The notes under the pieces were generated by a model. The model saw only the letters and a program-made list of their open reading frames with translations. It was not told where the DNA came from and did not search any database. This document shows, one piece after another, positions 3,089 to 63,562 of a DNA stretch of 64,000 bases. This DNA comes from Ianthella basta (Eukaryota; Porifera; Demospongiae; Verongiida; Ianthellidae): contig OZ025876.1 in assembly GCA_964019415.1 (NCBI GenBank), forward strand, positions 4,103,293 through 4,167,292, read 5' to 3'. Position 1 is the first letter of the stretch. Each line of letters opens with the position of its first letter. The position numbers were made by a program, and so were the translations under genes.

Positions 3089-6000
3089 CTTGCATCATTT
3101 GATGGAGCTCTTCCACAAGCTCTGTGCAGTGTTGCTGGGCAATACCCGCAAATTGCATTGCACTGAGGAGGACTTGCCAGGTGCAGTGGTCGCCGTGAGT
3201 CTCCCACAACTTGATTAAGGCTATCCTGAATTGATTGGTCTTCATCAAGAGGGTTGCTTTGATAGCAGAACTTTATCTCATCTGGGGAAAGCCCCATACA
3301 CTCAAGTAGAGCTTTGCCTTTGCTGGCACTTTTTCTGCTGATATATTTTCTGAAGATGAATGCGTGTGTCTCACATGATGCAGTGGAGACAGAAGGTGGC
3401 ACTAGTAAAGTTATTCTACAATCTGAAAACACCCAGCACAACAGTGAGGTTGTCTTAGCAGTGCATAATTCATATGAACACAACACAAGTACATGTGTTC
3501 ACTCACAGTGTACTGGCTGTGAGAGGACAGGGTCCCTGTCAATGAGAGCTACCTCAGACATGCTCTGGACAGCCTCCCTCTCACCTGCACACAACAACAG
3601 ACAGGCAGTCAAGAAACAGGTGGGAATGCACTCAGTAGACACTGCAGATACCTGCTTACATAACACATACCAGCCTACAGGTGTGCAAGGGATAAATAAG
3701 AGCACCAAAGAAGGCACAATCATTCTTCACTTGAATATGTACGATACACAATGTTCACAAACTCACTTTATTTTTCTTTAATCACCTCCATGGGAAATGT
3801 CAAGGGCCCTGATGTGGTCCCGCTGACAAACAGGTGAAAGAATTTGTGATTGATGAGTCCCTCAGGAACTTTGCTCTGCATAACTTTCACAGTGATGGAG
3901 GGGGGGTACGCTTCAGCAATGACAGCTTGCTTTAGCGCATCCCGCTGGTATATTCTCTTGTACTCAACATCTTTCACTGAGACCTTCACAGTGGAGCAAG
4001 GGAATACAAGATCAGAAAATAGTACAGAAGCTATAAGAAGAAAGATGTTACAATGGAAAATGTGGGAGCTGTGGAGACTGCACTAGGCTATCCTATCCCC
4101 TTAGAGACACAGACTACGTACTTACCTTGGAAGGTCCAACAGTAGACGCACACCATCCTTTACCACTGTCCATGTCCAGACTTCCCTTAATAGAATGCTG
4201 TTTGAACTGAAAACGGTAGTTACCACAGAGTTTCCATTTTTTCCAATAGCGTTTCAAAATCTATTGCGAAAATAATTCACTGTTACATAAAAGTACTGAA
4301 CACTGCATGCTCTGTACACGCACTCACCCTGATCCACACATAATTAGACTCAAATATGATGGCAACTCTAGAGTGTCGACAGGTGCCCTCTTGTCTCTCC
4401 AGATACGAGGCATAGTACCTACTGGTGTCCTCCAGGCGGCAGGCTTGTCCAAACAGGGAGCTGTGGCCATCCACCTCCAGGATCCCATAGCCTTCATGAA
4501 ACTCCCCACCCTCCTGCAGACAAAATGGGTAAGAAACTTCCCCCTCTGGGAGGGTGTGGGGGGAGGTGACAAAGGTGGGGTGGTCAGATGCACCAGACCA
4601 GTGGGGGAGGCGGAGGTGGAAGGGCTTGGTGGCTTGGGCTGAATCGTAGTAGAGGTAGACTGCCATACTGCAGAGCTTGTAGCCCTCTGGTGTCCTGAAT
4701 GGACTATCAGGAATCACAGCATAGCAGACCTCCAACACTCCCTCTCCATCTGCTCTCACTGCCCCCTGAGGCACATGCAGCTTGGTCATGCCTTCATCTT
4801 CTTCGTTGTTGCTACCCTCAAGCTGCAGCGGGAATACCCCTCCATCTGGGGTGACAAGAAGAGAATCTATCCCTGAAATAATCGAGCAGACGTCTTGCAG
4901 GACTGCTTCATGGGCTGTGTAGGAAGGAGAGATGTGGAGGGAGGGGGAAGGAGATAAGGTAGAAAAGAGTATGTATGTGGACATGGAGCATGTGCAGACA
5001 TGCTTCAGATTACGACTAACTGAGGTGAGCTCATTAACTGAGTGGGTGTACAGTGGTATAAGAAGCTAGATGTGAGATAACATACATTGGGGAGCACTGC
5101 TGTCCACTTACAGATGGAGAGCTTTGAGGAGGTTAGCAAGAGCTTTGTCTGGTGCAAACTGAATAGGAGCCCTTCCGGTCTACAGTGACAAGAGGATGCA
5201 CATGCACCACCTGCCATACAGTGCAGCAAGGAATTCTCAAAGAGAAACTTTGAAATCCAAACTGACTATAATTACGCTTCAAAAGGGGCAATTACTAGTA
5301 ATGCTACAGCCACTAAGATGGCTTAGCACATAGTTGAGGTCCACTTCCCAATCATGAGGCCTTGATTTCCACTAGACTGGTAAAGGAGTGGATAATGCAG
5401 CTAGTGGAATTTGAACTTGTCACATCACAACTACACAGAACTCATCACCTCTCTCCTCTCAGGACAGGTCATGCACTGACAAGATGCTCACTTTGTCATT
5501 GACATCTGGTGTCATCCCAAACTCCTCCACCAGTGTCTTCACAAGTTGGACATGACCACCTCCACATGCCAGGTGTACAGCACCACAACCATCCTGCAAG
5601 TGTGGGACACAAACTATGACATAGTGGAAAAAGAGATAGTGAACTGGATATTTCCTCACATTGTTCACCACATTCTGGTCCACTTTTTCTTTTGTGAGCA
5701 GTTCACGGACAATGTCTTCATGGCCCGCCACACAAGCCAACAGGAAGCAGTCCTGGCCGCTCTGAAGGAAGGTTGGTAGACATGACATTACCTTTGTGCA
5801 GAAATGCAAGCTACACAGGAAACATTTGAGGGGTAACATTTGGTAGACATTCAGGATAAGATGTGTGTATACAGAAGTATGAGTGCAACTACTGAGCAAT
5901 TTCACATCACAAGTGGGACACAGGGATTCTGCACTGTACAAGTCAGTGGGTAGTGTTGTTGGACAAGAGGGAAGCATAGGCAGCATGTGCAGTAGAAGGT

Positions 6001-6504
6001 GACCACTAGTGAGGTGATCATCTCAAGAGTGGGACTGTGGAACAGTGCAGTCATGCAATGGTATTATATATATTCCCACATAGAGCACTGCCATATTTGG
6101 AAACACTAATCTCAAGCCAGACCACTTCCAGCGTCCATTTAGTATGACACTGTCGTCTTTGTGTGTATGTGTGTGTGTGTGTGTGTGTGTGTGTGTGTGT
6201 GTGTGTGTGTGTGTGTGTGTGTGTGTGCACGTGTTTAGTACTTGAGTGCATGTGTACCTGTTAAGACATGTCTCATGAACAAATGTCATGTACCACTCAC
6301 TACATCTCTCAAGCTGAGGTCAAATCCACACTGGTCCACGAGGTACCTCAACACTGGGAGGCTACCACCTCCAACTGCACAGTGAAGGCATGTCGCACCA
6401 TTTTCATTCATATCAAACATTCTCTCTCCAAAGAGGGGCAACAGGTACTCCACACACTCAAGGGATCCACCATAGGCAGCAATGTGAAGGGAAGTGCATG
6501 AACC
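3089..6504 (-). pseudogene. Ankyrin repeats + ZU5 + death domain gene, 5'-truncated and probably disabled
   Basis: Exons (5' to 3'): 6504-6301, 5761-5660, 5593-5492, 5179-5112, 4872-4328, 4206-4126, 3983-3767, 3422-3089. The first four code about five ankyrin repeats. The 204-nt two-repeat exon and the next two (102 nt, phase 0) match exons 16, 17 and 19 of plus-strand genes A-C. Exon 5 codes a ZU5-type domain (GGVFPLQL, then LHVPQGAV). Exons 6-7 continue in phase and could be the end of ZU5 or a UPA-like segment. The last exon codes a death-domain-like fold (LLECMGLSPDEIKFC, then LIKLWETHGDHCTWQVLLSA). Known relatives with this order are ankyrins and, without repeats, UNC5 receptors; both act through protein contacts. 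Two lesions: an in-frame TAA at 3770-3768 just before a good donor, and a 1-nt shift near 3214-3219 that splits the death domain between frames. The phase of the exon 4/5 junction is unresolved. No start codon was found. Assembly error or an alternative isoform could mimic the lesions. Confidence 0.65.
6161..6228. repeat. (TG)n microsatellite
   Basis: A nearly pure TG tract, just downstream (in the sense of the minus-strand gene) of its two-repeat exon. It produces long His-Thr or Cys-Val open frames that are artefacts. Confidence 0.95.
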
Positions 6505-63400: not shown

Positions 63401-63562
63401 TTACAAGGTTTTTTAAAATGACAACCACGCTAGTATTTGTCATTATCCTGTGGCATGCAGAATGGAGAGACTGCTGTCATCATGGCTGCACAGAAGGGTC
63501 ACAAGGACCTTGTCCAGCGTTTAGTCAGCCACTACAAGTGTCCTGCCCAGGAGAAGGACAAG
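57479..63562 (+). CDS. Gene D: ankyrin-repeat protein, first 13 exons (incomplete)
   Basis: Exons in view: 57479-57564, 57685-57736, 58961-59068, 59533-59634, 59825-59926, 60010-60102, 60221-60322, 60922-61026, 61284-61385, 62103-62216, 62347-62454, 62686-62787, 63461-63562; the gene runs off the window after a donor at 63563. 426 codons are in frame without a stop. It aligns exon for exon with gene C, usually with the same exon lengths, and most exons differ by only a few residues; exon 1 is 6 nt longer. The N-terminus is [15 protein letters not shown], followed by [16 protein letters not shown], which gene C shares. The exon 9 donor is GT where gene C has GC. Ankyrin repeats only so far. 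Whether D has the six extra repeat exons of C cannot be told from this window. Confidence 0.83.
57789..57947. repeat. Interrupted (TG)n in gene D intron 2
   Basis: TG tract with CG and TA interruptions, at the place of the pure tract in gene C intron 2. Confidence 0.95.
58034..58362. mobile_element. Foldback MITE in gene D intron 2
   Basis: Counterpart of 39637-39959, with AGGCCT ends and internal CAATCTCATTGG kept. Confidence 0.65.
59717..59802 (+). repeat. (TG)n filling gene D intron 4
   Basis: As in gene C intron 4, it ends shortly before the acceptor (TCTGTCTGTCTGTCCATACATAG). Confidence 0.95.
60344..60369. repeat. 26-bp perfect palindrome in gene D intron 7
   Basis: CAGGAGTGCATAA followed directly by its complement; gene C lacks it. 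Confidence 0.9.
60393..60474. mobile_element. Short foldback element, gene D copy
   Basis: Diverged counterpart of 41817-41898. Confidence 0.4.
61386..62102. other. Gene D intron 9
   Basis: 717 nt, no exon seen; differs strongly from gene C intron 9. Confidence 0.5.
62931..63058. mobile_element. MITE relative in gene D intron 12
   Basis: CTACCTGTCTAAGATGGCCAC and the inverted ...GAGAGGTTACGCTGTAGTGT resemble the elements at 16797 and 32713. Confidence 0.5.

Follow-up and report, generated by a model that had tools for sequence, protein, structure and literature searches.

Genes of the window

The window analysed here is a 64,000-nucleotide (nt) stretch of the genome of the sponge Ianthella basta (positions 4103293-4167292 of contig C9, in a 209-Mb genome of 96 contigs), and it lies where one branch of a large tandem gene family gives way to another. 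Genes of one branch encode ankyrin repeats only, and four of them (A to D) lie in tandem on the plus strand. Genes of the other branch continue from ankyrin repeats into ZU5-type and Death-type domains, and a single locus of this kind lies on the minus strand, to the left of gene A. An ankyrin profile, seeded with repeats from the window itself, found a long plus-strand series and four clear minus-strand repeats. An earlier note on this DNA (the original prediction) had named four plus-strand ankyrin genes, a dead copy, and a minus-strand gene continuing into ZU5 and Death domains. The four plus-strand genes have all been located, with D continuing past the end of the window.

The exons of A to D carry one repeat each, in phase 0, and are mostly 102 nt long between AG and GT borders. 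Gene A (9380..18056) has 24 coding exons for 821 amino acids, including a 204-nt double-repeat exon (14431..14634) and a last exon that consists of a short repeat and the stop (17979..18056). Gene B (21017..33909) is a paralogue of A with the same number of coding exons and amino acids, and its double-repeat exon is at 30408..30611. An alternative in which A and B ended at exons 17458 and 33325 was overturned by the finding of a GC donor in exon 17458-17559 of A, directly before the short last exon; the penultimate exon of B is of the same kind. In gene C (40465..55487), 29 exons were found, encoding at least 1018 amino acids of ankyrin repeats, with a single GC donor at exon 42670-42771, a double-repeat exon at 46735..46938, and a short last repeat with stop at 55410..55487. 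The first coding exon of C was looked for with the splice model and not found. The splice models of A, B and C have no internal stops. Of gene D (58961..64000), 11 exons were read in the window, the last at 63461-63562. A match 83% identical to the last exon of C lies 10.7 kb beyond the window end and fits the end of D, and outside the window D probably closes with a short repeat carrying the stop. The solenoids comprise about 24 ankyrin repeats in A and in B, and about 30 were found in C.

The exon modules are thus shared much as the original prediction had it: single phase-0 repeats in A to D, and 204-nt doubles in A, B, C and the minus-strand locus, although the double of D could not be read. 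The short repeat ends A, B and C, stands before ZU5 in the minus-strand locus, and is probable for D. The predicted dead copy is taken to be the remains of 3' ankyrin exons that lie after C and before D (56290..56780, plus strand), of which the ankyrin profile detects two pieces (56290-56331 and 56679-56780).

Searching Pfam with gene A gave Ank_2 (1.4e-151) and Ank (2e-111), and at E ≤0.01 there were ankyrin families only, ZU5 and Death being absent. The Pfam run covered A; exons of B, C and D are of the same ankyrin type by the window-seeded profile. Within the window, ZU5 and Death profiles made from the family matched minus-strand exons only; the left 10-kb flank and half of the right one gave no match, D being thus covered in part.

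The ratio of nonsynonymous to synonymous substitution rates (Ka/Ks) is 0.28 between A and B over 780 codons and 0.25 between C and D over 380 codons. The order of repeats is colinear in A and C (23 pairs, score 1163 against 741 for the best shuffle), and none of 1000 shuffles was as good. With such ratios and such colinearity, genes A to D look intact and constrained, and purifying selection on the A-B and C-D pairs is demonstrated at the level of sequence.

Some local features of these genes may be recorded. The stretch 41195-41463 of C is 98% identical to 59739-60007 of D across introns and one exon, which exceeds the identity of several other C-D exon pairs, as recent conversion would give. 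An 18-nt tandem repeat flanks the last exon of A (17908-18016) and, in a longer form, that of B (33579-33832). An intron of B contains a 128-nt inverted repeat (23931-24192), 93% complementary with a 6-nt loop, resembling a small mobile element.

The minus-strand locus

The minus-strand locus (2962..6504) was compared with an in-frame relative at about 3779-3790 kb of C9, and its 3' limit was set by likeness to that relative. The relative has six ankyrin exons, units with three double repeats, two ankyrin exons and a short repeat; its ZU5, linker and Death exons can be read in frame to a stop, in a model without the first coding exon. Against this, the minus-strand locus retains the last double repeat and the exons downstream of it only, and with the ankyrin profile no clear ankyrin exon was found in the window 5' of 6504 on that strand. 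The retained ankyrin exons are the 204-nt double (6301..6504) and two singles (5660..5761 and 5492..5593), all from the ankyrin profile, and a short repeat (5108..5179) that is closed in frame by a TAA (5108-5110), a point at which the relative stays open. Next comes an open ZU5-type exon (4325..4914), which matches its own family profile at 3.8e-78, the exon itself being included in the profile, and whose relatives match PF00791. Two exons lie between ZU5 and Death. The first (4126..4260) is UPA-like by its place only, and the second (3767..3983) has an in-frame TAA (3768-3770). They are followed by a linker exon (3507..3584), recognized by comparison with the relative, and by a Death-type exon (3089..3422) with its homology distributed between two frames.

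Judged on its sequence, the locus is a pseudogene fragment, because its 5' exons are missing, it has two in-frame stops, and the frame changes within the Death exon. A lone sequencing error is unlikely, since a copy about 55 kb away (C9, 4051 kb) has the same kind of Death split. Compared with the relative, the ankyrin exons give ratios of 0.86-1.73, based on few changes, and the ZU5 exon a ratio of 0.33, being open over 196 codons; the difference would fit a young death of the locus. The original prediction of a minus-strand gene continuing into ZU5 and Death holds in that exons of both types are there, but not in that the gene works. A working death-signalling adaptor at this locus is rejected on account of the lesions.

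Identity of the ZU5 and Death exons

The ZU5 profile PF00791 matches 15 of 24 members of a broader set of the family's ZU5-type exons (E ≤1, best 4.3e-6) and 3 of 20 in a set of near relatives (best 0.13), the window exon being among the misses in both. One ZU5-type family member sits where a genome search clears Pfam's ZU5 cut-off. The Death profile PF00531 matches 5 of 12 relatives (E ≤1, best 0.0013), and one that was listed in full falls under the curated cut-off. When a profile of the 12 Death-type relatives was compared with solved structures, the best match was the Death domain of CRADD (0.0014). In the relative, a single ZU5-type exon was found by likeness. On these matches the ZU5 assignment holds for the relatives and the Death assignment probably does, and the window exons are recognizable as such only through them.

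The family along C9

Each family search covered its best 150 matches, and searching exon by exon misses split domains. The ZU5-type exon has at least 150 matches in the genome, with some exons represented by more than one piece. Counting the window's own, the matches listed include 51 of full length with an identity of at least 68%, and in 38 of these 51 a Death exon of the same family follows 0.5-6.5 kb downstream. Within the 38 pairs, one Death exon is shared by two ZU5 exons, three Death exons have a stop, and that of the window is broken. Double repeats of the ankyrin-only type close to that of C number 24 on C9 among the matches listed. The tail exon of A and B is found at eight places in the genome, and at seven of these an ankyrin-only double repeat precedes it.

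A block map was made from the 51 full-length ZU5-type exons and 6 fragments, 24 ankyrin-only double repeats and 49 Death exons, each out of 150. Ankyrin-only blocks lie at 2.26-2.42, 4.07-4.19, 4.38-4.54 and 5.96-6.03 Mb, and ZU5-type blocks at 2.86-3.03, 3.77-4.11, 4.21-4.37, 6.19-6.55 and 6.99-7.35 Mb. The blocks are impure, as an ankyrin-only locus at 4.067 Mb falls within the second ZU5-type stretch, and further matches beyond those used could add neighbours. Ten successive ankyrin-only loci have no same-strand ZU5-type exon ahead for at least 1.65 Mb among the matches used. Not all members are on C9: two of the 51 close ZU5-type exons lie elsewhere, and more remote relatives are spread over many contigs. 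The juxtaposition of ankyrin-only and ZU5-Death genes noted in the original prediction is therefore real on the scale of the chromosome, in alternating blocks, but it is not a private system of five genes.

Relation between the two branches

The repeat array of gene A is colinear with that of the in-frame relative (13 pairs, score 361 against 313 for the best of 1000 shuffles), and the chain contains 8 of 10 reciprocal best pairs. A tree of 47 double repeats places that of the minus-strand locus in a clade of 15 ZU5-type repeats (support 100/99) and outside those of A, B and C, contrary to the grouping with genes A to D that had been predicted. The tree has few columns and a bootstrap that had not settled; of genes A to D it covers A, B and C, and repeats are called ZU5-type, here and in the rate tests below, by likeness and place. 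The double repeat of the minus-strand locus is 48% identical to that of C, and between the branches, double repeats are in general only about half identical. The colinearity with the relative and the separate clades together point to an old array that both branches share and that has long been separate in each. In the relative, ZU5 starts at the point where the tail of A and B stops. The family suggests that an array may gain or lose its ZU5-Death half at one exon border.

The branches were also compared in their rates of change. The pooled ratios of nonsynonymous to synonymous differences per site (pN/pS) are 0.60 for ZU5-type double repeats (n=16) and 0.36 for ankyrin-only ones (n=14), several of the double repeats deriving from one gene; they are 0.33 for the ZU5 exon (n=17) and 0.28 for the Death exon (n=12). 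Contact positions were assigned from designed ankyrin proteins. Contact-type positions are more variable than others in both branches (1.06 versus 0.19 bits in the ZU5 branch; 1.22 versus 0.40 in the ankyrin-only branch). In the ZU5 branch, contact codons undergo amino-acid change at 2.1 times the overall silent rate (2.1% of site bootstraps at or below 1), a hint that contacts may have diversified there. The same comparison with the overall silent rate gives 0.33 for A-B and 0.61 for C-D. Decoy evolution by positive selection was considered for genes A to D, and it was not seen in Ka/Ks or in the contact-codon tests.

Comparison with known systems

Canonical ankyrins have 24 ankyrin repeats followed by ZU5-ZU5-UPA and Death. 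The in-frame relatives are like them in having an ankyrin array and then ZU5-type and Death-type domains, but they differ in that one ZU5-type exon is seen and in forming a large tandem family with ankyrin-only sisters. DAPK and ROCO-type proteins have the order ankyrin-Roc-Death. A frame of 1431 codons elsewhere on C9 (L070, 636900-643200) combines ankyrin repeats with a long Pro-Gln-rich repeat, matches Roc weakly, and has a Death stretch sharing 54% identity with that of the relative. It resembles DAPK and ROCO proteins, and unlike the ankyrin-ZU5-Death family it gives no ZU5 match; its Roc is under the Pfam cut-off. The genome as a whole has at least 102 NACHT and at least 150 Death matches, many arranged in arrays. 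A search of it for a silicatein motif yielded nothing identical.

PIDD1, UNC5 and UNC5CL have the architecture ZU5-UPA-Death. The present family is similar in that ZU5 precedes Death and that the best solved match of its Death profile is CRADD. Unlike those proteins, it has an ankyrin array in front, and the HF-S or SF-S type motif of PIDD-type autoprocessing is mostly missing: as [HS]F[ST], it is absent from 23 of 24 family members, present in one, and absent from the ZU5-to-linker stretch of the relative. According to an excerpt, CRADD and PIDD1 have been found in one complex (PMC8385073). Another excerpt describes lineage-specific expansions of TRADD-N and Death-superfamily proteins in marine invertebrates, with ankyrin repeats proposed as sensors (PMC8195603). 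Those expansions are likewise large families that combine ankyrin repeats with Death-type domains; they consist of TRADD-N proteins, and the likeness of the present family to them lies in its ankyrin and Death-type domains. Canonical ankyrins and sponge NLRs are the subjects, as far as excerpts go, of PMC5135030 and PMC12909245, respectively. In the titles and abstract openings of the open literature, no description was found of such an array of ankyrin-only and ZU5-Death genes.

Other features of the window

Between B and C, the minus strand has a 525-codon open frame (36860-38434) in which a BEN domain is recognized (6.1e-8), and its region includes a repeat with a 30-nt period (37447-37740). 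At the left end (8-1018, plus strand), two open frames have no Pfam match, the second having no NCBIfam match either, and they are perhaps part of another gene. NCBIfam gave no matches for four proteins, and neither Rfam families nor tRNA genes were found in the window. CA/TG microsatellites occur in introns and between genes (about 6100-6300, 39430-39630, 41150-41330, 49120-49790, 51390-51600 and 57740-57960).

Interpretation

The explanation towards which we lean joins the border between the two branches to a division of labor between their proteins. The in-frame ZU5-Death proteins would be cytosolic sensors or adaptors. Their array would bind a ligand, the ZU5 region would hold the Death domain in check, and the Death domain, once freed, would recruit a Death partner of the CRADD kind, a putative class to which the CRADD match is the sole pointer. 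The ankyrin-only proteins, since they stop where ZU5 would begin, are proposed to bind but not to signal; they would be scaffolds or regulators with conserved ligands. The minus-strand locus of the window, being a pseudogene fragment, cannot itself be the signalling partner of genes A to D.

A number of results weigh against this explanation or parts of it. The ZU5-type exon of the window gives no match to PF00791 and its Death-type exon none to Pfam Death, so that the domains predicted for the minus strand are backed by the matches of relatives and not by those of the window exons. The entire ZU5-to-Death stretch of the relative is also without a Pfam match at 0.01, profiles of the ZU5 exon retrieved no solved ZU5 when compared with solved structures, and a search for UPA in the ZU5-Death family, run without a positive control, gave no match. 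The predicted model of the ZU5 exon alone is poor (predicted local distance difference test, pLDDT, of 40) and inadequate for a fold search. For thirteen of the 51 close ZU5-type exons, the matches used include no Death exon downstream. Gene C and the relative show weak colinearity (11 pairs, 318 versus 310), and the chain takes in 8 of 15 reciprocal best pairs. As to contacts, the ratio within contact codons alone is 0.89 in the ZU5 branch, which makes the excess over the silent rate a hint and not a proof; the ankyrin-only branch has no excess (0.92); and contact codons are no freer than others in A-B (0.22 versus 0.30), the values in C-D being 0.60 versus 0.28. Variation at contact positions is, moreover, usual in ankyrin repeats. 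Finally, the ZU5 exon of the minus-strand locus still looks constrained, which may reflect a recent death or assembly errors.

The strongest rival, which we regard as a real though lesser possibility, is that the ankyrin-only proteins are ordinary intracellular scaffolds, functionally unrelated to the ZU5-Death branch and sharing with it common ancestry and a chromosome only. The separate clades of double repeats, about half identical between branches (48% for the minus-strand locus and C), the constraint on A-B and C-D, and the mostly separate chromosomal blocks are what such scaffolds would lead one to expect. The colinearity of the arrays, their similar short terminal repeat, and the alternation of the blocks along one chromosome speak for a closer connection.

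It seems unlikely that, as the original prediction suggested, the ankyrin-only proteins are decoys or inhibitors, competing with ZU5-Death proteins for ligand or binding to their arrays. An array kept with no output domain seen, and a tail that stops at the very point where the ZU5 of the relative starts, would suit a decoy. However, ankyrin-only and ZU5-type arrays are now far apart in sequence, contact-type positions of A-B are not diversified, and the constraint on A-B and C-D speaks against fast-evolving decoys. Least probable by far is that the minus-strand locus still functions, whether it encodes a short ankyrin protein or is spliced so as to bypass the stops: its open ZU5 exon at 0.33 would favor this, but the missing 5' exons, the stops before ZU5 and before the linker, the Death homology in two frames, the ankyrin-exon ratios (from small counts), and the same Death split in the copy 55 kb away all argue otherwise.

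Returning to the explanation by a branch border and a division of labor, its boldest form would be a two-branch intracellular recognition family in one animal lineage, in which dozens of contact-varying ankyrin-ZU5-Death proteins are accompanied by constrained ankyrin-only sisters acting as partners or brakes; we consider this full picture doubtful. If the branches do cooperate, they would form a recognition family encoded in the germline, in which sisters that do not signal are built in; the clean split between array and output would make the family easy to test. Whether or not they cooperate, the family offers natural ankyrin solenoids in large number.

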